Positions 3,560 through 15,843 of a stretch of DNA of 64,000 nt are shown here, piece after piece (positions within the stretch are counted from its first letter, which is position 1; every line of letters starts with the position of its first letter). The stretch is from positions 1,674,001 through 1,738,000 of the forward strand of contig NZ_JAYEZN010000001.1 of assembly GCF_037031225.1 (NCBI RefSeq). The letters are read 5' to 3'. The notes under the pieces were generated by a model. It did not search any database. It was not told the DNA's origin and saw only the letters and a list, made by a program, of their open reading frames with translations. The stretch comes from Halorientalis sp. LT38. Its GTDB lineage: Archaea > Halobacteriota > Halobacteria > Halobacteriales > Haloarculaceae. A program made the position numbers and the translations under genes.

Positions 3560-5746
3560 ATGGGCCGACGCAAGAAGATCGTACAGGAGTGCGAACGGCT
3601 GATGGACGAGCCGGAGAACATCCGGAACATCGCCATCGCCGCCCACGTCGATCACGGCAAGACGACACTGACGGACAACCTCCTCGCGGGGGCCGGCATG
3701 ATCTCGGACGAGACCGCCGGCGAGCAGCTCGCGATGGACACCGAAGAGGACGAGCAGGAACGCGGGATCACCATCGACGCGGCGAACGTCTCGATGACCC
3801 ACGAGTACGAGGACACCAACCACCTCATCAACCTCATCGACACGCCCGGCCACGTCGACTTCGGGGGCGACGTGACCCGTGCGATGCGCGCCGTCGACGG
3901 CGCGCTCGTCGTTGTGGACGCCGTCGAGGGCGCCATGCCCCAGACGGAGACGGTCCTCCGACAGGCGCTCCGCGAGGGCGTCAAGCCCGCCCTGTTCATC
4001 AACAAGGTCGATCGCCTCATCTCCGAGCTCGAGGAGGGCCCCCAGGAGATGCAGGAGCGACTCACCGCGGTCATCCGCGACGTGAACGACCTCATCCGCG
4101 GGATGACCGAGGAGATGGACGACATCGACGACTGGACCGTCTCCGTCGAGGAGGGGACCGTCGGCTTCGGCTCCGCGCTCTACAAGTGGGGCGTCTCCAT
4201 GCCCTCGATGCAGCGCACGGGGATGGACTTCGGCGACATCATCGACCTCGAGCAGGCCGACGAGCGCCAGGAGCTCCACGAGCGGACCCCCCTGGCCGAC
4301 GTCGTGCTCGACATGGTCTGTGAGCACTTCCCCAACCCCATCGACGCCCAGCCGATGCGCATCCCGCGCGTCTGGCGTGGCGACGCCGACTCGGAACTGG
4401 CCGACACGATGCGGCTGGTCGACGAGGACGGCGAAGTCGTCCTGATGGTCACCGACATCGGCGTCGACCCCCACGCCGGCGAGATCGCCGCCGGCCGCGT
4501 CTTCTCCGGGACGATCGAGAAGGGACAGGAACTCTACGTCTCCGGCACCGCGGGCAAGAACCGCATCCAGAGCGTCGGCATCTACATGGGCGGCGAGCGC
4601 GAGGAAGTCGACCGCGTCCCGGCCGGCAACATCGCGGCGGTCACCGGTCTGAAGGACGCCATCGCCGGCTCCACGGTCTCCTCCGTGGAGATGACACCCT
4701 TCGAGTCCATCGAGCACATCTCGGAGCCGGTCATCACGAAGTCCGTCGAGGCCCAGCGGATGGACGACCTGCCGAAGCTCATCGAGACGCTCCAGCAGGT
4801 CTCGAAGGAGGACCCGACGATCCAGATCGAGATCAACGAGGACACCGGCGAGCACCTCATCTCCGGGCAGGGCGAGCTCCACCTCGAAGTGATCACCCAG
4901 CGCATCGAGCGCAACCAGGGGATCCCCGTCAACACCGGCGAACCGATCGTCGTCTTCCGCGAGGCCCCGCAGGAACCCTCCCGCGAAGTCGAGGGCATCT
5001 CGCCGAACCGCCACAACCGCTTCTACATCAGTATCGAGCCGCTCCCGCAGGACGTCGTCGAGACGATCAAGATGGGCGAGGCGTCGATGGACATGCCGGA
5101 ACTCGAACGGCGTGAGGCGCTGATGGAGGCCGGTCTCGACAAGGACACCGCCCAGGAAGTCGAGACCATGCACGGCACCAACATCCTCATCGACGACACG
5201 AAGGGGATCCAGCACCTCAACGAGACGATGGAACTCGTCGTCGAGGGCCTCGAGGAAGCGCTGGACGACGGCCCCCTCGCGGCCGAACCCGTCGAGGGCG
5301 CCCTCATCCGCCTCCACGACGCCCGCCTCCACGAGGACGCCATCCACCGCGGTCCGGCACAGGTCATCCCCGCCGTCCGCGAGGCCGTCCACAACGCCCT
5401 TGTCGACGCCAAGATCCGCCTGCTGGAGCCGATCCAGGAGGTCCGGATCGACGTGCCCAACGACCACATGGGCGCCGCGTCCGGCGAGATCCAGGGCCGC
5501 CGTGGCCGCGTCGACGACATGTACCAGGAAGGCGACCTGATGGTCGTCGAGGGCGTCGCGCCCGTCGAGGAGATGATCGGCTTCTCCAGCGACATTCGGA
5601 GCGCCACCGAGGGCCGTGCCTCCTGGAACACCGAGAACGCCGGCTTCCAGGTCATGGCCGACAACCTCCAGCCCGACCAGATCACCGAGATCCGCGAGCG
5701 CAAGGGCATGAAGACCGAACTGCCCGAAGCGATCGATTACTTCTAG
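3560..5746 (+). CDS. fusA: Translation elongation factor EF-2
   Basis: 728 residues, the normal length for archaeal EF-2, the GTPase that drives ribosomal translocation. G1 is [12 protein letters not shown] (residues about 26-37), G3 is DTPGH and G4 is NKVD. Domain IV carries the IHRG sequence, with His596 at the position modified to diphthamide in archaeal and eukaryotic EF-2. The C-terminal GRRGRV block is also typical. ATG 3560 follows TATA-like sequence and gives the family N-terminus [15 protein letters not shown]; the frame is open for 450 bases upstream but that stretch looks noncoding. A T-rich terminator and a structured repeat follow the stop directly. Confidence 0.97.
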
Positions 5747-5870
5747 CCACCTTTTTCTTCGTCGGGTCGCGGCGACGCCGCGACCGCTCCTCGAAAAACG
5801 TGGGCGAAAAAGCGGGACCTCGCTACGCTCGGCCCCGTGAACCGCCTCGCTTCGCTCGGCGGATGCTGGC
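5747..5870 (+). repeat. Intergenic structured repeat, copy A (after EF-2)
   Basis: This stretch of about 124 bases starts one base after the EF-2 stop and is repeated at 9740-9867 after tRNA-Ala. Shared blocks are cacctttttcttcgtcg at the left, ctcctcgaaaaacgtgggcg in the middle, and gtgaaccgc plus tcgcttcgctc at the right. Between them the two copies have different sequence but keep pairing: here gtcgcgg/ccgcgac and ccgcc/ggcgg. The T-run probably serves as a transcription terminator. The rest has no coding potential. Confidence 0.75.
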
Positions 5871-5941
5871 CTCTCTACCGCACCGTCCCGCGACCGCAGT
5901 GTTTGATCAACTTTACCCCAGCGCGCCGCCTAGCTGAGGGT

Positions 5942-6169
5942 ATGTCGCTACTCCACCAGATTCTGGACGTCCTCATCGGGGGGTTGATCGCCGGCGTCTC
6001 GCACTTCCTGTTGAGTTTCGTCATCGCCGACCCGAACCTCCCGGTCACCATCGGCGTCATCCTCGCGAGCATGTACTACTTCTCGCGGAATCCGTGGGGG
6101 GCGAACCCGGAGCAGGCCGAACGGACGAACGAGCGGATCGACGAGGTCTACGAGAAGATCCTGCCGTGA
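5942..6169 (+). CDS. Small conserved membrane protein
   Basis: 75 residues from ATG 5942. Two hydrophobic segments (about residues 5-27 and 32-50) are separated by a short polar turn, followed by a charged tail with NPWGANPEQAERTNERIDEVYEKI. The upstream part of the open frame (from 5837) lies in the repeat and is not credible coding sequence. A TATA-like string would be expected near 5915, where gatcaactttac occurs. I do not recognise a named family. The protein is probably an integral membrane protein of unknown role. It sits alone between EF-2 and the homoserine dehydrogenase operon. Confidence 0.7.
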   Translation: MSLLHQILDVLIGGLIAGVSHFLLSFVIADPNLPVTIGVILASMYYFSRNPWGANPEQAERTNERIDEVYEKILP

Positions 6170-6228
6170 GCGTCCCCGCGCGGGCCGCGCCGAAACACCC
6201 GGCAGGGAAGTACGAAAAGGTGGCATTC

Positions 6229-6234
6229 TTATAA
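6229..6234 (+). promoter_or_regulatory. TATA element of the leader ORF-ACT-hom operon
   Basis: The string ttataa lies 24-29 bases upstream of ATG 6258, the usual spacing for a haloarchaeal TATA box. A transcript starting about 25 bases downstream would begin at or next to ATG 6258, so the message would be leaderless with the 25-codon ORF first. This is position-based inference; no start site was measured. Confidence 0.5.
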
Positions 6235-6257
6235 CGGTCGGTACGTGAGATGCAGGC

Positions 6258-6335
6258 ATGACCAGCAACGGGAGCGACGACCGGCGGTGGCGGTATCCGC
6301 CGGATTGCGAGTCGCGGGGGGTGCGAGGCGTATGA
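6258..6335 (+). CDS. Putative 25-residue leader peptide, coupled to ACT gene
   Basis: This short ORF runs from ATG 6258 to TGA 6333-6335. It encodes 25 residues with an RRWRYPPDCESRG core. Its stop overlaps the start of the ACT-domain gene in the arrangement ATGA, so ribosomes finishing it could reinitiate on the next gene. The TATA element at 6229-6234 is spaced so that this ATG would be at the 5' end of the message. It has no run of Thr, Ile or Met codons, so it is not a classic attenuation peptide. Coding status is inferred from position only; the alternative is untranslated leader sequence. Confidence 0.4.
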   Translation: MTSNGSDDRRWRYPPDCESRGVRGV

Positions 6336-6865
6336 ACGACCACAGCGAGGAGGTCCACGCCTACACCGTCCGGCTGGAGCTCGTGGACGAACCGGGCGAG
6401 CTGTTGCGCGCGCTCGACCCGATCGCGAACAACGGGGGCAACCTCCTCTCGATCTTCCACGAGCGCGGGAACCTGACGCCCCGGGGCCACATCCCGGTCG
6501 AGGTCGACCTGGAGGCGACGCCCGAGCGCTTCGACGCGGTCGTCGAGGGGCTCCGGGACGCCGGGGTCAACGTCATCCAGGCCGGCGCGGAGCGCTACAG
6601 CGAGGAACTGACCGTCATCGTCGTCGGCGACCTCGTCCAGACGGACCTCTCCGATACCCTGTCGGCGATCCAGGACGGGACGGACACCTCCATCACCGAC
6701 GTGTCGCTGTCGGCGCCCGAGGGGACCGAGAACGGCGCGAGCGCACGGCTTCGGTTGAAGACCCAGAGCGGCGAGTCCGAGACCGTCCTCGACTCGGTCC
6801 GGTCGGTCGCCGAGCGAAAGGACCTCCGCGTCATCGAACCGCTCACGGGAGGTGGTGAGGCGTGA
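6332..6865 (+). CDS. ACT-domain amino-acid-binding protein
   Basis: 177 residues from ATG 6332. The N-terminal half (about 8-85) is an ACT fold: AYTVRLELVDEPGELLRALDPIANNGGNLLSI is the typical first strand, GEL turn and helix. The second half begins with ELTVIVVGDL and resembles a second ligand-binding or degenerate ACT module. ACT domains bind amino acids as allosteric effectors. The stop overlaps the GTG start of homoserine dehydrogenase by four bases (GTGA), so the two are translationally coupled. In bacteria the ACT regulatory domain is often fused to homoserine dehydrogenase; here it is probably a separate regulatory subunit that senses threonine or a related end product. Confidence 0.85.
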   Translation: MNDHSEEVHAYTVRLELVDEPGELLRALDPIANNGGNLLSIFHERGNLTPRGHIPVEVDLEATPERFDAVVEGLRDAGVNVIQAGAERYSEELTVIVVGDLVQTDLSDTLSAIQDGTDTSITDVSLSAPEGTENGASARLRLKTQSGESETVLDSVRSVAERKDLRVIEPLTGGGEA

Positions 6866-7815
6866 GACTGGCCATCGTCGGCGCCGGCGACGTGGGTCGG
6901 TCTGTCGCCGACCTCGCCGCGGGGTACGGCCACACCGTCACCGCCGTCGCCGACTCGTCGAGTGCGGCCGTCGACGCCGACGGGATCGACGTGGCCGCCG
7001 CCCTGGAACGAAAGCGCGAGGAAGGCACCGTGGGGGATGACTCGCCCGAGGACGCCCTCGACGGGGAGTACGACGCGCTGGTGGAGGCGACGCCGACGAC
7101 CCTCGGCGACGCCCAGCCCGGCTTCGGGCACGTCCGGACGGCCCTGGAGCGGGACCGCCACGTCGTGCTCGCCAACAAGGGTCCCGTCGCCGAACGCTAC
7201 GCCGAGATCCGCGACCTCGAACGCGAGAGCGCCGGCTCGGTTCGCTTCGAGGCGGCCGTCGGCGGCGCGATCCCCGTGCTCTCGACCGTCGAGGACGTGG
7301 GCCCGGACAACATCGTCGCCGCGCGTGGCGTGTTGAACGGGACGGCCAACTTCGTCCTGACGCGGATGGCCGCCGAGGGGCTGGACTACGAGCACGTCCT
7401 CGCGGAGGCCCAGGACATGGGCGTCGCGGAGGCGGACCCCTCCTTCGACGTCGAGGGGACCGACGCGGCGCTGAAGTGCGTCATCCTCGCGAACGTCCTC
7501 GCACAGGGCGAGCGGACCTACGAACTGGCCGACGCCGAGGTCGAGGGAATCACGGACGTCCCGGGGAGCGCGCTGGAGCTCGCCAACGAAGACGGCCGGA
7601 CCGTGCGGCTCATCGGCGAGGTCAGCGGCGAGAAGGTCCGGGTCGGCCCGCGACTCGTGCCCGAGCACGGCGACCTCGCGGTCGGCGGGACGACGAACAT
7701 CGTCCAGCTGGAGACCGATCACGCCGGCCGGCTGAATCTGAGCGGCCGCGGGGCGGGCGGCCCCGAGACGGCGACCGCCGTGCTCTCTGACGTGGGTCGA
7801 CTGCCCGAGCTGTGA
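6862..7815 (+). CDS. hom: Homoserine dehydrogenase
   Basis: 317 residues from GTG 6862. The enzyme reduces aspartate semialdehyde to homoserine with NAD(P)H, the branch point to threonine and methionine. Residues 1-12 carry the Rossmann motif GAGDVGRS, followed by the NAD-domain EATPTT strand. The catalytic half shows HVVLANKGPVA, GGAIPVLST and RGVLNGTANFVLTRM, all characteristic of the family, and AEADPSFDVEGTDAALK. There is no C-terminal ACT domain, which agrees with the separate ACT protein encoded immediately upstream with a four-base overlap. Length and motifs are normal, so the enzyme is expected to be active. Confidence 0.95.
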   Translation: MRLAIVGAGDVGRSVADLAAGYGHTVTAVADSSSAAVDADGIDVAAALERKREEGTVGDDSPEDALDGEYDALVEATPTTLGDAQPGFGHVRTALERDRHVVLANKGPVAERYAEIRDLERESAGSVRFEAAVGGAIPVLSTVEDVGPDNIVAARGVLNGTANFVLTRMAAEGLDYEHVLAEAQDMGVAEADPSFDVEGTDAALKCVILANVLAQGERTYELADAEVEGITDVPGSALELANEDGRTVRLIGEVSGEKVRVGPRLVPEHGDLAVGGTTNIVQLETDHAGRLNLSGRGAGGPETATAVLSDVGRLPEL

Positions 7816-7967
7816 GGGCCCCAATTCGGAACCGGACTGGCGCAAGTCGTGTGACGGTCTGCCAAATCGCAAGACGGCGGCGGGACGGCGACCGCCACCT
7901 ATCGAAATCGTTTTAACTGCCACCACCAAAAGAGTCCGATATAGCGCCTCTGCGCGTGAGATAAAAA

Positions 7968-9665: not shown

Positions 9666-9737
9666 GGGCTCGTAGATCAGCGGTAGATCGCTTCCTTCGC
9701 AAGGAAGAGGCCCTGGGTTCAAATCCCAGCGAGTCCA
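9666..9737 (+). tRNA. tRNA-Ala (anticodon CGC)
   Basis: A 72-base cloverleaf. The acceptor stem gggctcg/cgagtcc has the G3-U70 wobble that identifies alanine tRNA. The D stem is gatc/gatc with loop agcggta. The anticodon stem cttcc/ggaag has loop ttcgcaa, giving anticodon CGC. The variable loop is aggcc, and the T stem ctggg/cccag has loop ttcaaat. The discriminator base is A, and CCA is not encoded. No intron is present. The 3' end borders the structured repeat copy B and then the accessory island. Confidence 0.96.
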
Positions 9738-9739
9738 CT

Positions 9740-9867
9740 CCACCTTTTTCTTCGTCGGGTCGCGCTTCGCGCGACCACTCCTCGAAAAACGTGGGCGAAA
9801 AAAGGCCGAGTCCTCACTCCGTTCGGACTCGGTGAACCGCGCTCGCTTCGCTCGCGCGGATGCTTGC
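9740..9867 (+). repeat. Intergenic structured repeat, copy B (after tRNA-Ala)
   Basis: This is the second copy of the element at 5747-5870, starting two bases after tRNA-Ala. Conserved blocks match copy A almost base for base, including the T-run and the ctcctcgaaaaacgtgggcg block. The variable parts still form hairpins: gtcgcgc/gcgcgac, ccgagtcc/ggactcgg and ccgcgc/gcgcgg. Copy A has different bases at these stems, so pairing rather than sequence is kept. The left T-run probably terminates the tRNA transcript. Confidence 0.75.
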
Positions 9868-9880
9868 TCAATTTAGCAAA

Positions 9881-11218
9881 TCACAGTAGTTTTTTCAATT
9901 CCTGTGCGTCGCTCATGAGTTGCTGTTGAGATTCGTCAGGAGCCCTCTCGTTATCATCGAAATTTTCTGGTGATACCGCCTTTTGCATTGCCCGAAGCCG
10001 CCGCGATAGCTCACCGGAAGTAGCATCGACGAGCTGGTCATCAGGCCACGAGTGAACCTCGATATTCCCGTACCGGTTAGCCTGCTGTTGGACGGTATTG
10101 ATTTGCTCAACAGCGTACTCCACCCAAGCGGTCCGGTCCTCCTCGAATTCCCGAAGCTTTGTTACCACATCATCCCTTCCCACTTCTTCAGCGGCTTCTA
10201 GACACATCTCGAAATTTGCCCCACGCGGGTTGATCGGTTCATGGAAAACAACCGCTGCCCCGAGTGCGGAGAAGTGACCTAGTAGGTTGTCGATCTCGTA
10301 CTTTCCCATCCCGGGGTACGTAGGAGACATGGAGACGAAGACAGAAACGCCAGCCCGTTGGAGTTGATCGAGCGCATTCCATCGCTTCATCGGCGGTGGT
10401 GCGTTCGGTTCCATTGCCGAAACTAGTTCTGCGTCCAGCGAGGGAATCGACGAACCGACTGTCACCAGATTCCCTGCTTGTTTGAATAGATCGAGATCTC
10501 GAACTACTGCCGGACTACGGGTTAGGATTCGGACTGGAATTTCGTGTTCAATCAGTTCGTAAACACACCCCCGAGTTATCTGTGCGGCACGCCGATCCTG
10601 ATAGCAATCCGTTCCGCTCGACAGCATCACGACGCCACGACCGCGATCGGTCTGCTTTCGTTCCTCGGGGTTTCGATCTTCGAGTATCCGGTGGAGGCGT
10701 TCGGGGAGATCGTCGCGGTAGAGAAGGTAGCTTCCCCAATCTCGTTGGGCATCATCTACGTCGGCCTGCTCGTTCAGCATATCCTCCCGGTGTTCGACGG
10801 CGGGCGTGGTCGGAACGTAGCAGAACTTACAGCCGTGACGGCAGCCGGTGGCGACGTTGATTACGTGATCGCAGAGGCTCTTCTTGTGCAGTTGGGATTC
10901 ACTCATTACCGCCTTCGTTGGGTCGGTGTTTACCCGGACGCCGTTTTCTGAATCGCCGGTGGCGTCCATTGCACAATCCCAACAGAGGAGATCGCTGTCT
11001 GGATCGGAAGCAAAGCGACCGTTGATTTCATCACTACATTCAGAACAGAGGAGACCGGCCTGCCAAAGGTCGATACGCTCCCCATGCCTCCGCTCTGCTT
11101 CGCGTAATTCGTCAAGCGACGGACTTTCGTCGAAGGATTCGAGGACATGGCCCCTCTGGTTTTCGAGGGCATAGGTTCGCTCGAACCAGCTATCTCCGGT
11201 GTCCCAGGTGAGTTTCAT
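9881..11218 (-). CDS. SPL-like radical SAM protein with N-terminal zinc ribbon
   Basis: 445 residues from ATG 11218, with a TATA-like string 19-29 bases upstream. The first 100 residues hold two CxxC pairs (C58, C61, C79, C82) suggesting a zinc ribbon. The core carries GCRHGCKFCYVP, with C126, C130 and C133 in the CX3CX2C spacing that binds the radical-SAM 4Fe-4S cluster. Later blocks such as RGRGVVMLSSGTDCYQ, RILTRSPAVVRDLDL, VGSSIPSLD and FVSMSPTYP follow the spore-photoproduct-lyase-like SAM barrel pattern. A paralogue is encoded divergently at 11459. The substrate is unknown. Base composition is lower in GC than the flanking core genes, and the gene borders a tRNA, both signs of acquisition. 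Confidence 0.85.
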   Translation of the reverse strand: MKLTWDTGDSWFERTYALENQRGHVLESFDESPSLDELREAERRHGERIDLWQAGLLCSECSDEINGRFASDPDSDLLCWDCAMDATGDSENGVRVNTDPTKAVMSESQLHKKSLCDHVINVATGCRHGCKFCYVPTTPAVEHREDMLNEQADVDDAQRDWGSYLLYRDDLPERLHRILEDRNPEERKQTDRGRGVVMLSSGTDCYQDRRAAQITRGCVYELIEHEIPVRILTRSPAVVRDLDLFKQAGNLVTVGSSIPSLDAELVSAMEPNAPPPMKRWNALDQLQRAGVSVFVSMSPTYPGMGKYEIDNLLGHFSALGAAVVFHEPINPRGANFEMCLEAAEEVGRDDVVTKLREFEEDRTAWVEYAVEQINTVQQQANRYGNIEVHSWPDDQLVDATSGELSRRLRAMQKAVSPENFDDNERAPDESQQQLMSDAQELKKLL

Positions 11219-11236
11219 GGTGGGCCACTTACCTCG

Positions 11237-11247
11237 ATATTTAAAAT
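11237..11247 (-). promoter_or_regulatory. TATA-like element of the zinc-ribbon radical SAM gene
   Basis: On the minus strand the sequence reads attttaaatat, 19-29 bases before ATG 11218. This fits a leaderless or near-leaderless transcript and supports 11218 as the start over the longer frame beginning at 11341. Confidence 0.5.
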
Positions 11248-11313
11248 CCAACCCCAAAGAAGCGAGCCTACCGGACTGAAAGTAAAACACGGAGAACCAC
11301 TGTGTGTTACTCC

Positions 11314-11331
11314 TTCTGGAAATCCGGAAAC
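11314..11331. promoter_or_regulatory. Operator-like sequence resembling the 14163 palindrome
   Basis: In the 240-base divergent gap between the two radical SAM genes, ttctggaa is followed by a single a and then tccggaaac. The 14163-14183 palindrome reads ttccggaa, gt, tccggaaac at the same place. The right arm is identical, the left arm differs at one base, and the spacer is one base shorter. It may be a second, weaker site for the same regulator. The match could be chance. Confidence 0.3.
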
Positions 11332-11458
11332 GACCCGGCACGACTTATTAAACTCTGCACTGAATCCTTGGTTATGATGGACTCGATGAGACGTTTGCGC
11401 CAAAATCTCGGGACAACAAATTTGTATTTCGAACTAGATAATCGAGGTGAGATGAACA

Positions 11459-12511
11459 ATGACCCATAATCACGACGAGGTGCGAACCAGCGAGGACCCC
11501 ACAAAGGCGATCTTGAGCGAATCGGGTCTAAACAGTAAGCATCTCTGTGATTATGTGGTTAACGTCGCCACCGGCTGTCGTCACGGGTGTAAATTTTGCT
11601 ACGTACCCTCAACGCCGAACATCCGAACGCGGCCAGATATGCTTGAGGAAGAGGTTGACATAAAAAATGGGCAGAAAGAATGGGGGAATTATGTGCTCTA
11701 CCGTGACGGCCTGGGTGAGAGATTAGATAATCATCTAGATAGAAAAAGAAGCTGGAATAAAACTCCCCGTGGCCGTGGTGTAGTTGGCGTTTCATTCTCA
11801 ACAGATTGCTACATGGATGGCAGGGCTGGCAATATTACGCGTAATGTCGTTGACGCGCTAACTAACCATGAAAGGTATACTCGCGTTCTCACAAGAAATC
11901 CTATTCTTGCACTCCAAGACGCTGATGTTTTTGTTGATGGTGGAAATCACGTTACAATCGGATCCTCCATCCCGTGTATGGATGCTGAACAAGTACAAGC
12001 GATTGAGCCACGGGCACCCGCTCCCAAACATAGGTTGCAAGGTTTAAAGAAATTCAATGATCGGGGGGTCCAGACATTCGTTAGTATGAGTCCGACCTAT
12101 CCCACCCAAAATAAGGAAGACATCAGATACCAGCTTCTTAGAGTCTCTGAGTGTGATCCAGCAGTAGTATTTCATGAACCAATTAATCCTCGTGGTGCGA
12201 ACTTTGAGATGACTGTTGAAGCAGCCCGAGAGGCTGGACAAACGGAATTAGCAGAGGAATTAGACAATCTCCGAAACCGGGATCAATGGGTCGAATACGC
12301 TGTTAAACATCTTCGATGGGTCCAAGAAATTGGGAGGAATTTAGACCTACCTATTCACTTGTGGCCCGACAAGGAACTCATCAAATATGTCTCAGAGGAG
12401 GAAGCGACGTGGTTACAATCTTGGCGCGATCGTCAATCACCAGAAGACTTTGCTAAACGAGACACACCAAAAGGACCGGCACCTCCATATCCAGAACAGA
12501 TATCAAGCTAA
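11459..12511 (+). CDS. SPL-like radical SAM protein (short paralogue)
   Basis: 350 residues from ATG 11459, preceded by gaggtga six bases before the start, a clear Shine-Dalgarno-like site. GCRHGCKFCYVP places the cluster cysteines at C40, C44 and C47. The protein aligns along its whole length with the C-terminal 350 residues of the divergent neighbour: DPTKAILSES, GNYVLYRDGL, PRGRGVVG, STDCYMDGRAG, VTIGSSIPCMD, FVSMSPTYP and FHEPINPRGANFEM are shared or nearly so. It lacks the zinc ribbon. It is clearly AT-richer than the core genome. The tcmP-like gene follows after 100 bases on the same strand. The role is unknown; a partner of TcmP is likely from the family name and position. Confidence 0.85.
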   Translation: MTHNHDEVRTSEDPTKAILSESGLNSKHLCDYVVNVATGCRHGCKFCYVPSTPNIRTRPDMLEEEVDIKNGQKEWGNYVLYRDGLGERLDNHLDRKRSWNKTPRGRGVVGVSFSTDCYMDGRAGNITRNVVDALTNHERYTRVLTRNPILALQDADVFVDGGNHVTIGSSIPCMDAEQVQAIEPRAPAPKHRLQGLKKFNDRGVQTFVSMSPTYPTQNKEDIRYQLLRVSECDPAVVFHEPINPRGANFEMTVEAAREAGQTELAEELDNLRNRDQWVEYAVKHLRWVQEIGRNLDLPIHLWPDKELIKYVSEEEATWLQSWRDRQSPEDFAKRDTPKGPAPPYPEQISS

Positions 12512-12533
12512 ATTGATGGAAATTCCCACAGTG

Positions 12534-12563
12534 GCTCCCGAGGACTTATGTTATTACGGGAGC
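12534..12563 (+). other. Hairpin between radical SAM gene and tcmP
   Basis: The 7-base arms gctcccg (12534-12540) and cgggagc (12557-12563) flank a 16-base AT-rich loop. There is no T-run after it, so it is not an obvious terminator. It could be an RNA processing or attenuation structure that lets the two genes be expressed at different levels. Confidence 0.4.
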
Positions 12564-12611
12564 ACTTGGTAGCTACCTCGTCTACAACGGCGCTTCCCTG
12601 AATTCATTCCC

Positions 12612-13811
12612 ATGTACGAAGATAGTGACGAACGTAAATTTGGAAAAAAGGGCCAAAAAGGGAAAAAAGGCCAAACAAAGATGAAACATCGGATACTTCG
12701 TCTCTATCTGAATCCTTGGCTGAAAAAAATCAGCACAGTGAATTCAGATATATTATATGTCGACGGGTTCGCTGGACCTGGTGTTTATCCTGACGGATCT
12801 GATGGATCACCGATTATTGCGATGGAGATGGCGAACAAAATCCTATCAGAATCAGAGAGAGTGAGCAAACGGGTTGAGACTATTCGATGTGTTTTCATAG
12901 AAAAAGATTCTGAGAATTTTGCTAAGTTGGAGGAGTCAGTTGGCAGTCGAGCAAAAGAACTTGATGACCGCATTGATCCGGTTTGCATCAATGGAGAGTT
13001 TGAGGGGTGGGCAAATGATTTCATTAATGAATTTCAGGATACCTCGCCACCTCCGGGGCTTGTGTTCATAGATCCTTTCGGATATAGCAACATTCCATTT
13101 GAGCTAATATCCGACCTATATAGATTGCGCGATTGCAGTCTTGAACTCTTGATCACATTTATGGCTGGAAAGATGGCGCAGTGGATGGTAGATCAAGATC
13201 ATCAGAAGGCGATCTCAGACACATTAGGAATTGATGATTGGCAAACTGAAGTTCCACCAGATATGTCCAAAGACGAGCGTGCAGAACAATTCTCGTCTAT
13301 TTATCAAAGAGAACTACAGGAGCGTGCTGGTGCGGCCTTCACAATGCCGTTTGAGATGGTTGAAGAGACGAAGAAACAGGTTTGCTACTATTTAATCCAT
13401 GTAACGAATCACTGGGAAGGCCTCAAAGTTATGAAAGAAACAATGTTCAATGCTGGCGCAGATGATAAATTTGCATACCTAGGTCCAGACCATTCTGGTT
13501 ACGAAGATGAGCAACTCTCTTTTGCCGAGTTTGCAGAAACGGATAACTTTGAAGAGCGGATAGAAGATTTTGCTCAAGAATTATACTCAAAGTACAAAGG
13601 CACGGACATAATATTCCAGGACTTATTAGAGGATACCTTTGACGAAAATGTGTTCAAGGTAAGTCATTACCGAGAGGCTTTCAAGATACTGAAAGAAAAC
13701 GGAAAGCTAGAGGTAGAACATCGACCAAATGCAGGAGGAAATGAATCTCGTGGATTTGGACGTCCCGATAGACTGGTGTTTGTGAATATGTCTTTGGGGA
13801 ATTTCGTATAG
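12612..13811 (+). CDS. tcmP: Three-Cys-motif partner protein (TcmP-like)
   Basis: 399 residues. The N-terminus is a lysine-rich tract (KFGKKGQKGKKGQTKMKHRI) likely to touch nucleic acid, leading into the family pattern KMKHRILRLYLNPWL. A Rossmann methyltransferase-like core follows: ILYVDGFAGPG (D51 to G57, motif I), CVFIEKD (motif II) and VFIDPFGYSNIPF (D154, motif IV position). The DPFG in place of DPPY or NPPY argues against an ordinary amino-methylating enzyme. The C-terminal 100 residues look like a winged helix. TcmP proteins are named for genomic pairing with proteins carrying a three-cysteine motif; here the upstream radical SAM gene fits. Biochemical function is unknown to me. The gene is AT-rich and its 3' end overlaps the regulator ORF on the other strand. 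Confidence 0.85.
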   Translation: MYEDSDERKFGKKGQKGKKGQTKMKHRILRLYLNPWLKKISTVNSDILYVDGFAGPGVYPDGSDGSPIIAMEMANKILSESERVSKRVETIRCVFIEKDSENFAKLEESVGSRAKELDDRIDPVCINGEFEGWANDFINEFQDTSPPPGLVFIDPFGYSNIPFELISDLYRLRDCSLELLITFMAGKMAQWMVDQDHQKAISDTLGIDDWQTEVPPDMSKDERAEQFSSIYQRELQERAGAAFTMPFEMVEETKKQVCYYLIHVTNHWEGLKVMKETMFNAGADDKFAYLGPDHSGYEDEQLSFAEFAETDNFEERIEDFAQELYSKYKGTDIIFQDLLEDTFDENVFKVSHYREAFKILKENGKLEVEHRPNAGGNESRGFGRPDRLVFVNMSLGNFV

Positions 13812-14147
13812 ATTGTTTGACCTATTATCTGTCTGAATGTCTAAAGCCACAGGTGACAGTTCGCCGTCAGCACACATATGGGATTTCTCTCCAATGTCAT
13901 GGTCATAGAGGTCATGATGCTCTAGCGCCCGCTCAACCTTCTCCGTGATAGCGTACATCTTGAAGCTAACCGAAGGACCGACCCTCGCAACGTAATCTGC
14001 TCTAGCCAACGCTGCCATCCGATTGTAAGGGTAGCGGGGACTGTTCATTGTCAGCTCCACTAAACTGGGTACAGTCTGTCGTTTCCCGTCATACATCGCC
14101 TCTAGAACGTCAAAATACCAATGCGAGTGAGGCGGCCTCGATACCAC
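13707..14147 (-). CDS. Winged-helix regulator of island type, degenerate C-terminus
   Basis: 146 residues from GTG 14147. Residues 1-75 read as a winged helix: PPHSHWYFDVLEAMYDGKR, then VPSLVELTMNSPRYPYNRMAALARADYVARVGPS as the recognition unit and FKMYAITEKVERAL as the wing and last helix. Similar small regulators are common in haloarchaeal viruses and integrative elements. Beyond about residue 110 the sequence loses protein-like character and the frame runs 105 bases antisense into tcmP before a stop, so the natural stop may have been lost. A perfect palindrome lies 16 bases upstream of its start, which suggests autoregulation together with the divergent micro-ORFs. Confidence 0.6.
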   Translation of the reverse strand: MVSRPPHSHWYFDVLEAMYDGKRQTVPSLVELTMNSPRYPYNRMAALARADYVARVGPSVSFKMYAITEKVERALEHHDLYDHDIGEKSHMCADGELSPVALDIQTDNRSNNLYEIPQRHIHKHQSIGTSKSTRFISSCIWSMFYL

Positions 14148-14162
14148 AGGTAACGCACGACC

Positions 14163-14183
14163 GTTTCCGGAAGTTCCGGAAAC
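14163..14183. promoter_or_regulatory. Perfect palindromic operator candidate
   Basis: A 21-base inverted repeat with 10-base arms gtttccggaa and ttccggaaac around a single g. It lies 16 bases upstream of the regulator start (14147, minus) and 43 bases upstream of ATG 14226 (plus), overlapping the likely promoter zone of both. The size and symmetry fit a dimeric winged-helix regulator site. Confidence 0.65.
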
Positions 14184-14225
14184 ACCCCGGTTCGACCCAA
14201 ATACCTCCAAGCCCTCCGAACAGGT

Positions 14226-14270
14226 ATGCCAGAGACACAACCTCAGATCGACGGAGAGGTGAGCGACTGA
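14226..14270 (+). CDS. 14-residue ORF preceding zinc micro-protein
   Basis: ATG 14226 to TGA 14268-14270 encodes 14 residues (MPETQPQIDGEVSD). One base separates its stop from the next ATG at 14272, so the pair could be translationally coupled. The AT-rich string acccaaatacc at 14196-14206 lies about 20-30 bases upstream, fitting a leaderless promoter. It is too short to judge by composition. Confidence 0.35.
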   Translation: MPETQPQIDGEVSD

Positions 14271-14271
14271 G

Positions 14272-14367
14272 ATGCCCGAGTGCTGCCCCGAATGCGGGAA
14301 TCCCGACCTCACACCAGAGGGCGGGTGCCCGTTCTGCCATCGGTGCGGGTGGAGCGAGTGCGGCTAG
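14272..14367 (+). CDS. 31-residue zinc-finger micro-protein
   Basis: ATG 14272 to TAG 14365-14367. The peptide has two CPxCG/CxxC type knuckles (CPECG near the start and CHRCGW near the end) and eight cysteines or histidines in 31 residues, so it very likely folds around zinc. Tiny proteins of this kind, about 30-60 residues with CPxCG motifs, are a known abundant class in haloarchaea and occur in their mobile elements; some affect growth or biofilm formation. It is the last gene of the tRNA-linked island, divergent from the winged-helix regulator across the palindrome at 14163. Confidence 0.7.
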   Translation: MPECCPECGNPDLTPEGGCPFCHRCGWSECG

Positions 14368-14430
14368 CCGATCGACGCCCACACGAGAGAGGCACCGGAC
14401 TTAATTCCGTGCGCGCTCACTATTGACGGC

Positions 14431-15843
14431 ATGGCTACGGACAGTCCCCAGGAAGCGCAATCGGCCGAGGGGGACGCGACGACGGCGGAGGATGCGACGG
14501 AGGCCCCGATCGCGCCCTACCCGCCCAACTGCGGGCCGCCCACGTTGCATATCGTCCACCAGATGCGCGATCCGCTGGCGTTCGCCGAGCGGGCGCTCGC
14601 GACGCGGGACGTCGTGCGACTGCACCAGTTCGGACAGGGCGACATCTACGGCGTGGGCCACCCCGAGCACGCCAAACGAGTGCTGCTCACCGACCGCGAG
14701 AAGTTCCGCAAGTCCGCGGACTTCCGGATCGCCTTCGGCGAGGGGCTGCTAACGGTGGAGGGCGAGGAGTGGGCCCAGCAGCGGGACGTCCTCCAGCCGC
14801 TGTTCACCAGGGACAGCGTGCTGGGCTACGCCGACGGGATGGTCGAGCAGGTCCGCCGCCGGATCGACCGCTGGAACGACGGCGATCGGCTCGAACTCCA
14901 GGCGGAGTTCACCGACCTGGCGCTCGACGTCCTGTTCGCGACGGTGCTGGGCCGGGAACTCGCCCTCGATGGCGACCGGGAGCTACGGGAGAGCGCCGAA
15001 CACCTCCACGGCTGGTTCAAGCCGACCTCCTACTTCCTCCCGGAGTGGGTACCGACGCCGGCCCGACGCCGGTTCCGGGCGGCCAAGGAGCGAATCCGGA
15101 CGGAGGCCGACCGGTTGCTCGACGAGGCGGCCGAGGGGGCGCCGACGGATCCGAGCGAGGCCGAGGACCTGCTCTCGCTGCTCGTGGGGTTGCGCGAGTC
15201 CGGGATGGCGGACTCGGCGATGCTCACGGACGAGCGCCTGCGCGACCAGATGGTGACCTTTCTCTTCGCCGGGCACGACACCTCGACGACGACGCTGACC
15301 TTCGCCTGCTGGGCGCTCGCGAACAACCCCGAACTCCGCGAGCGATTCCACGCGGAGGTCGACGAACTGGACGGGCCGCCGACGCTCGCGGACGTCGACG
15401 ACCTCGAGGTGACCGAACGGCTCGTCACCGAGACGCTGCGGCTCTATCCGCCGGTACACTCGCTGCCCCGCGAGCCGACGACCGACGTGGTCTTCGACGG
15501 CTACCGCATCCCGGCGAACGAACAGCTCCTGGTCGCGATCCGGCACATCCACCGCGACTCGCGCTTCTTCGACGACCCGAAAGAGTTCCGCCCCTCGCGG
15601 TGGGACGGCGACCTCCAGTCCGAGTTGCACGACTTCGCCTACGCGCCCTTCGGCGGCGGCCCGCGGATCTGCATCGGCCGGCAGTTCGCGCTCCTGGAGG
15701 CTCAGCTGGCGCTCGCGACCATCGGCCGGCAGTACGACCTCCACTGGCTCGGCGAGAACGACGCCGACGGCGAGCCGCCCGTCTCCGCGGAGATGACCCT
15801 CCGGATGGAGCCGGGCCAGGAGTTCCTCGTCACGGAGCGCTGA
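14431..15843 (+). CDS. Cytochrome P450
   Basis: 470 residues from ATG 14431, a soluble class P450 of ordinary length with no signal or anchor segment. The heme loop FAYAPFGGGPRICIGRQFA places the thiolate ligand at Cys414. The I-helix oxygen-activation motif is FLFAGHDTSTTTL, the K-helix ExxR is ETLRLYPP, and the PERF-like region is FRPSRWDGD. It resembles the haloarchaeal/bacterial group near CYP197/CYP102-like fatty-acid or terpene hydroxylases, but the substrate cannot be read from sequence. No ferredoxin or reductase gene is adjacent. The convergent ASCH gene ends 27 bases downstream. GC content is back to that of the core genome, so the island ends before it. Confidence 0.95.
   Translation: MATDSPQEAQSAEGDATTAEDATEAPIAPYPPNCGPPTLHIVHQMRDPLAFAERALATRDVVRLHQFGQGDIYGVGHPEHAKRVLLTDREKFRKSADFRIAFGEGLLTVEGEEWAQQRDVLQPLFTRDSVLGYADGMVEQVRRRIDRWNDGDRLELQAEFTDLALDVLFATVLGRELALDGDRELRESAEHLHGWFKPTSYFLPEWVPTPARRRFRAAKERIRTEADRLLDEAAEGAPTDPSEAEDLLSLLVGLRESGMADSAMLTDERLRDQMVTFLFAGHDTSTTTLTFACWALANNPELRERFHAEVDELDGPPTLADVDDLEVTERLVTETLRLYPPVHSLPREPTTDVVFDGYRIPANEQLLVAIRHIHRDSRFFDDPKEFRPSRWDGDLQSELHDFAYAPFGGGPRICIGRQFALLEAQLALATIGRQYDLHWLGENDADGEPPVSAEMTLRMEPGQEFLVTER

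Follow-up and report, generated by a model that had tools for sequence, protein, structure and literature searches.

What do two paralogous radical S-adenosylmethionine (SAM) proteins and a TcmP protein do together behind a tRNA gene of a haloarchaeon? The question is raised by a stretch of 64,000 nucleotides from Halorientalis sp. LT38 (contig NZ_JAYEZN010000001.1, positions 1,674,001 to 1,738,000 of the forward strand; hereafter the window), in which a segment of low GC content following tRNA-Ala(CGC) encodes the proteins SAM1, SAM2 and TcmP (Table 1). A first-pass annotation, made from the sequence alone, had proposed that the three form one nucleic acid-modifying or defence module. Our analysis leads us to view them as a mobile three-gene DNA-modifying module, probably antiviral, in which a clamp-docked TcmP would act with a pair of radical SAM proteins resembling spore photoproduct lyase (SPL). 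We give this reading a probability of about 0.5.

A recurrent module with an exchangeable partner

Among 293 genomes of the order, the SAM family (SAM2 as query) was found in 28, some of them with fragments only, and TcmP in seven by protein search and in 20 with the TIGR04474 model. A SAM-family gene adjoins TcmP in every one of the 20 TIGR04474 genomes (hypergeometric probability 7e-25 against the 28 SAM-positive genomes), and the three-Cys-motif neighbour expected of a TcmP is present in the window as well, where SAM2 with its CX3CX2C motif lies next to TcmP. The proposal of a single recurrent module is thus upheld by its co-occurrence in other genomes. The alternative of ordinary core genes was rejected given the limited number of SAM-positive genomes (28 of 293) and the lack of the family in the sampled same-genus genomes. 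More broadly, a scan of the genomes of 84,980 species showed the SAM family to be almost confined to haloarchaea, with two remote matches in Verrucomicrobiales and one further locus (L097). The latter (positions 5743-7831), which comes from ASS_A1, an uncultured archaeon that is not part of the haloarchaeal set, encodes one SAM protein convergent with a TcmP relative ending in EQQTLKFDTE; this arrangement is possibly an older, one-SAM form.

Three types of TcmP were resolved by iterative hidden Markov model (HMM) searches of the neighbourhoods: type I (about 382-399 aa), with DGFAGxG and DPFG motifs and a GMT-like winged helix-turn-helix (wHTH); type II (about 340-350 aa), with DALAGSG and IDNQ; and type III (about 290-310 aa), with DTHSGTG and DPKG. 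Both SAM genes are usually present, some type III loci (L049-L051) having SAM2 alone, and the gene order varies between divergent SAM genes with a downstream TcmP, tandem SAM genes with an upstream TcmP and, at L060, a TcmP gene between the SAM genes. An origin from haloviruses was also considered and rejected, as a single clear homologue of SAM2 (L098) turned up in viral contigs, where neither of two TcmP queries, of type I and type II, gave any.

In the genomes of group g3, which include Haloarcula sebkhae, SAM1 and SAM2 are 87-96% identical, whereas identities between the TcmPs, which come from different subfamilies, vary from 98% to as little as 21%. Between L045 and L046, SAM1 and SAM2 share 93 and 94% identity and the TcmPs 30%; for L042 versus L045, the values for SAM1, SAM2 and TcmP are 93, 93 and 28%. 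The converse was met between L039 and L048 (60, 78 and 73%, respectively). Near-identical SAM pairs (93-94%) accompanied by TcmPs that are 21-30% alike and come from three subfamilies indicate that the partner has been exchanged as a cassette. A natural partner-swapping experiment is already available in one genus.

Besides complete modules, lone SAM homologues without TcmP were observed at L052, L057 and L061, the one at L057 (7760-8920) being of high GC content and located, as judged by eye, beside ribosomal-protein-like genes. SAM fragments of 150-200 aa, mostly of the C-terminal half and up to four per genome, were seen in G020, G083, G172, G198, G238 (C10) and G091 (C4). These scattered fragments are likely remnants of decayed copies.

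The SPL-like radical SAM pair

SAM1 and SAM2 share 50% sequence identity (E 3e-101) and both pass the PF04055 cut-off of 29.5 bits (50.6 and 40.5 bits), in agreement with the two CX3CX2C paralogues reported at first pass. The motif is found at residues 126-133 of SAM1 (CRHGCKFC) and 40-47 of SAM2 (C40/C44/C47), and its cysteines are invariant in 28 SAM-family sequences. By motif and profile, the two proteins belong to the radical SAM superfamily, and a 4Fe-4S cluster and SAM cleavage are predicted for them. SAM1 also displays zinc-ribbon cysteines (CSEC/CWDC at 58/79); its mechanically called open reading frame (ORF) covers 9881-11341 on the minus strand, and homologue comparison led us to place the likely start at the ATG at 11218 (MKLTWDTGDSW). 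The paralogues form two separate clades, each conserved, which are kept side by side, so that the pair is old and has been retained.

The AlphaFold2 (AF2) model of SAM2 is of high confidence (predicted local distance difference test, pLDDT, 89.9; predicted TM-score 0.90). Its best Foldseek matches are radical-SAM barrels, among the top ones of which SPL (4fhf) has the lowest root-mean-square deviation (3.4; TM-score 0.51/0.53), and maturases of ribosomally synthesized and post-translationally modified peptides reach scores like those of SPL. In profile searches, SPL was the sole match to SAM2 below E 0.01, the alignment to its PDB profile being limited to the cluster motif and to a stretch of weak similarity near the C-terminus. 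Since the SPL model of Pfam (PF20903) gave 14.3 bits for SAM2, against a cut-off of 27, and no match for SAM1, we name the proteins SPL-like and not SPL. C117 of SAM2 is near-invariant, and the SAM proteins share a near-invariant cysteine in a TDC motif, at most a tentative counterpart of the hydrogen-donor cysteine of SPL (Cys140/141).

TcmP and its kinship to RlmJ

The TcmP of the window reaches 174.3 bits against TIGR04474 (cut-off 53), matches PF22560 and the PADLOC model PDC-M30A (E 1.6e-35), and possesses the lysine-rich N-terminus, the DGFAGPG (at 51) and the DPFG (at 154) already pointed out by the first-pass annotation. Its AF2 model (pLDDT 87.6) retrieved many class I methyltransferases with Foldseek, several of them acting on RNA. 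The solved (PDB) sequence nearest to the TcmP profile is RlmJ (E 0.002), the alignment including DxxAGxGRY, GSPLIA and the motif IV DP. In both sequence and structure, the SAM proteins are related to SPL-type enzymes and TcmP to nucleic acid methyltransferases, in support of the first-pass interpretation.

Apart from the start methionine, K25, G55 and D154 are the sole invariant residues of 46 archaeal and viral TcmPs, and D51 is nearly so. The catalytic residues of RlmJ are K18 and D164 (PMC3814359). The profile alignment superimposes D154 of TcmP on D164, while K25, which is outside the HMM alignment, would correspond to K18 by its position in the first helix. TcmP thus appears to contain the lysine (motif X) and the aspartate (motif IV) of an RlmJ-type active site. 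No counterpart of the DPP(Y/F) form of motif IV was found in TcmP, this site being DPFG in type I, DN(Q/E) in type II and DPKG or DPEG in type III.

Candidate clamp-docking motifs

The consensus of the PCNA-interacting protein (PIP) box in Haloferax is QxxLxxFx (PMC7776575), and FEN1 of the window genome ends with the same motif (QTGLDRWT). A strict archaeal pattern, Q..[LIM]..[FYW] within the last 12 residues, was found in 14 of 21 haloarchaeal TcmP-family ORFs versus 1 of 466 other ORFs of the same loci, shuffled tails giving an expectation of 0.16. When the haloarchaeal TcmPs were grouped at 50% identity into 13 clusters, the eight clusters of types II and III all had a QxxLxxF-type C-terminus (with tails such as QSGLGDFF, QTSLADF and QSSLGDF), and the five type I clusters had a looser form in the linker that precedes the wHTH (QMDLTSF, QSGLEQF, QTNLF, QARLF and, in the window, QLSFAEF). 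Both candidate peptides of the window TcmP (Table 1) fall in segments modelled with a pLDDT below 50: the linker one within residues 297-309, the other at the last residues. The haloarchaeal TcmP family therefore carries candidate PCNA-docking motifs, through which binding to PCNA may take place.

In bacteria, the corresponding ligand is the QxxLF form of the beta-clamp motif, whose consensus we took from PMC13254535. Q..[LM]F was detected in the linker or the last eight residues of 15 of 37 bacterial viral TcmPs, where shuffling expects 0.5, and in 1 of 80 of their DUF5131 neighbours. The bacterial motif occupies the same two sites as the archaeal PIP form, i.e. the linker or the extreme C-terminus.

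Insertion slot and neighbouring genes

The composition drop and the change of gene content following tRNA-Ala(CGC) are real: GC content falls from 0.62-0.70 upstream to 0.43-0.56 from about 9.5 kb and returns to 0.65-0.70 at ~14-14.3 kb. The low-GC stretch contains, in order, SAM1 (-), SAM2 (+), TcmP (+), a small wHTH protein (-) and a zinc microprotein of 31 residues. The stretch ending with the tRNA was matched in all 39 relatives searched. By blastn, flank homology with the relative G098 extends up to 9864, immediately beyond the stop codon of SAM1, and restarts at 14475, at a P450 gene.

Table 1. Features of the tRNA-Ala(CGC)/P450 slot (positions in the window)
Feature	Position	Strand	Basis or remark
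tRNA-Ala(CGC)	9666..9738	+	ARAGORN; left landmark of variable slot
AT-rich accessory insert	9865..14474		approximate outer limits; blastn against relatives, GC profile
SAM1, SPL-like radical SAM protein with N-terminal zinc ribbon, 445 aa	9881..11218	-	PF04055 (E 3e-13), Cys motifs, start by homologues
SAM2, SPL-like radical SAM paralogue, 350 aa	11459..12511	+	PF04055, homology, AF2, Foldseek
TcmP type I (PDC-M30A-like), class I methyltransferase fold and C-terminal GMT-like wHTH, 399 aa	12612..13811	+	TIGR04474, PF22560, PADLOC, AF2
Candidate clamp-docking peptide EQLSFAEF, TcmP linker residues 300-307	13509..13532	+	degenerate PIP, F for L at position 4
Candidate C-terminal PIP-like tail NMSLGNFV, TcmP residues 392-399	13785..13808	+	N for Q at position 1
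Small winged-helix protein, probably outside the module	13872..14144	-	common in haloarchaea; no Pfam match at cut-off
CPxCG zinc microprotein, 31 aa, probably outside the module	14272..14367	+	sequence MPECCPECGNPDLTPEGGCPFCHRCGWSECG

The same slot is filled by a different island of 40% GC in G098, is about 1.2 kb long in G250 and G295, and holds provirus-like genes in G212; it is thus variable within the genus. The insert showed no integrase ORF, and a search for a direct repeat derived from the tRNA was negative, so that the "island" of the first-pass annotation survives as an AT-rich insert in a variable slot and not as a tRNA-integrated element. The island of G098 also contains, at L241 3525-4304, an ORF of 259 aa resembling the DNA polymerase III beta subunit, i.e. 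the sliding clamp (PF00712, E 1.8e-5), which is odd for an archaeon.

The small wHTH protein and the microprotein, which the first-pass annotation had listed alongside the module, are genuine ORFs of common, unrelated families and were rejected as module components. The former belongs to a small haloarchaeal family present in 26 of 99 genomes, and a 67% identical homologue of the latter lies about 1 kb from the TcmP of G283 (L055 6885-6965). Proximity to defence genes, a check that the earlier proposal called for, was noted at several loci: related loci have as neighbours, at a distance of a few kb, Cas1, an ATPase of OLD type, GmrSD/Orf5 together with a protein resembling DrmMI/IIG, a further IIG enzyme and three PADLOC candidates (PDC-S54, S59 and S28). 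Because these neighbours were picked by eye and no background rate accompanies them, they are taken as supportive only.

Proposed mechanism and alternative explanations

How could the three proteins work together? TcmP, with its RlmJ/Dam-like methyltransferase fold, would dock on PCNA via the PIP-box peptides of its linker or tail and would thereby be brought to DNA under replication, while the wHTH at its C-terminus and its basic N-terminus would assist nucleic acid binding. SAM1, with its zinc ribbon, and SAM2 would work together, probably as a heteromer, and apply 5'-deoxyadenosyl-radical chemistry to a base that TcmP has presented or methylated, in this presumed order. The SAM pair would be the constant engine and TcmP the exchangeable targeting part.

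Several observations weigh against this scheme. We know of no activity for any member of the module, which also contains no nuclease or other killing effector. Both PIP motifs of the window's own TcmP are degenerate, the motif patterns were picked after the sequences had been seen, the type I linker pattern is loose, and the motif is present in just 18 of 40 bacterial TcmP clusters. Moreover, the departure of motif IV from DPPY means that catalysis may be lost in some TcmP types, the substrate of RlmJ itself is RNA, and the bacterial relatives of TcmP ride phages and plasmids, as would also be expected if the system protected its carrier.

Self-protection is indeed the strongest rival, although we consider it rather unlikely. 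The module would mark the replicating DNA of a mobile element and shield it from host restriction, as an anti-restriction system. This would be in line with relatives found on phages, prophages, plasmids and integrative and conjugative elements, with frequent restriction enzymes in the neighbourhood of a module that has no nuclease, and with a clamp docking that would tie modification to the replication of the element. However, the window copy is chromosomal and has neither integrase nor replication genes, the haloarchaeal loci have defence genes as neighbours, and near-identical SAM pairs with different TcmPs resemble a specificity switching against changing enemies. DNA repair follows at a distinctly low probability: a PCNA-docked, DNA-binding partner would lead the SPL-like pair to fork lesions. 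Haloarchaea live under strong UV, repair proteins typically have PIP boxes and SPL is the closest nucleic acid-acting relative of the pair in both fold and sequence; yet the SPL Pfam model is not reached (see above), and a repair function hardly suits a sporadic occurrence (28 of 293 genomes), AT-rich and variable slots, defence neighbourhoods and an exchangeable partner. Least probable of the three is an action on RNA, with TcmP as a methyltransferase of rRNA or tRNA type that would, for instance, shut off translation upon infection, the Q..L..F tails being coincidental or meant for another partner. Although the nearest solved relative, RlmJ, methylates 23S rRNA and several Foldseek matches are RNA methyltransferases, the clamp-type motifs occupy matching positions in both domains and differ in form between them, with PIP in archaea and QxxLF in bacteria, which speaks against an action on RNA.

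The clamp-docked reading goes beyond the first-pass annotation by partner swapping, clamp-docking motifs, the kinship with RlmJ and the replacement of the bacterial DUF5131. Phages and plasmids widely encode TcmP and DUF5131, which appear in lists of candidate defence systems with no proposed mechanism. A clamp motif that changes with the host clamp, together with RlmJ-type residues, offers a testable handle on the nature of the modified DNA or RNA and on the timing of its modification. Radical-SAM chemistry on nucleic acids is rare outside SPL and RNA-modifying enzymes, and the haloarchaeal pair, if its proposed role is true, would add it to the mobile systems of genome conflict.

Relation to known systems

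In bacteria, TcmP pairs with DUF5131 on plasmids and phages (Rhodococcus, Mycolicibacterium, Paraburkholderia, pCAR1, Pseudochrobactrum, Acidovorax and R. phaseoli). Gp38 of the Gordonia phage Easley also lies beside TcmP and matches the same PADLOC B models as DUF5131. PADLOC lists these pairs as the candidates PDC-M30 and PDC-M41, the B models of both of which match the same DUF5131 proteins. Three bacterial loci (L118, L121 and L127) have two TcmP genes and one DUF5131 gene, which suggests combined M30/M41 systems. In Sinorhizobium meliloti, the TcmP gene SMa2243 shares a table with the Hna defence gene SMa2245 (PMC12445080). Our literature search on TcmP and DUF5131 retrieved no functional study. 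In the window genome, the B component of PDC-M30 is missing, as SAM1 and SAM2 match no PADLOC model and PF07505 has no match. A pairing of haloarchaeal TcmP with DUF5131 was likewise rejected: DUF5131 occurs in 9 of the 293 genomes, none of them with TcmP, and while a zero overlap with the 20 TcmP genomes is expected by chance (p 0.52), the telling fact is the SAM gene beside every TcmP.

Bacterial and archaeal TcmP systems could form one class of clamp-tethered, nucleic acid-modifying immune or counter-immune systems, an idea that we hold as tentative and somewhat doubtful. The docking peptide would fit the host clamp (QxxLF for the beta-clamp, PIP for PCNA), TcmP would be a specificity cassette that is swapped while its Fe-S enzyme stays constant, and in haloarchaea the SPL-like pair would modify a DNA base where replication forks pass.

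Each component has its own known counterparts. The SAM proteins share CX3CX2C, a partial TIM barrel (as modelled) and local similarity around the cluster motif with SPL and the PA0069/Rv2578c families (COG1533-like), but differ from them by a TM-score of no more than about 0.5, scores well under the cut-offs of the family models, the existence of two paralogues, the zinc ribbon of SAM1 and the near-invariant extra cysteine at TDC(Y). TcmP has in common with RlmJ, the 23S rRNA m6A2030 methyltransferase, DxxAGxGRY, GSPLIA, an acidic residue, the DP motif and, as predicted, the catalytic Lys/Asp; unlike RlmJ, it has DPFG for DPPY, shows a gap in the profile alignment at the insertion of RlmJ, and is endowed with a wHTH, clamp motifs and partner genes. 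The QxxLxxF tail of the TcmP family resembles that of PCNA clients with PIP boxes (FEN1, RFC-B, Hef and RNase H2), from which TcmP is distinguished by being accessory and mobile, with radical-SAM partners and no known replication role. Finally, the module shares with PDC-M30 and PDC-M41 (TcmP with DUF5131/Gp37-Gp68) the TcmP subtype (type I matching M30A, types II and III best matching M41A), a two-component logic with an adjacent three-Cys protein, and a clamp motif in the linker or tail. It departs from them in that one or usually two SPL-like radical SAM proteins replace DUF5131 and that the clamp motif is of the PIP type. The haloarchaeal module has the appearance of a bacterial anti-phage candidate that was rebuilt in archaea.

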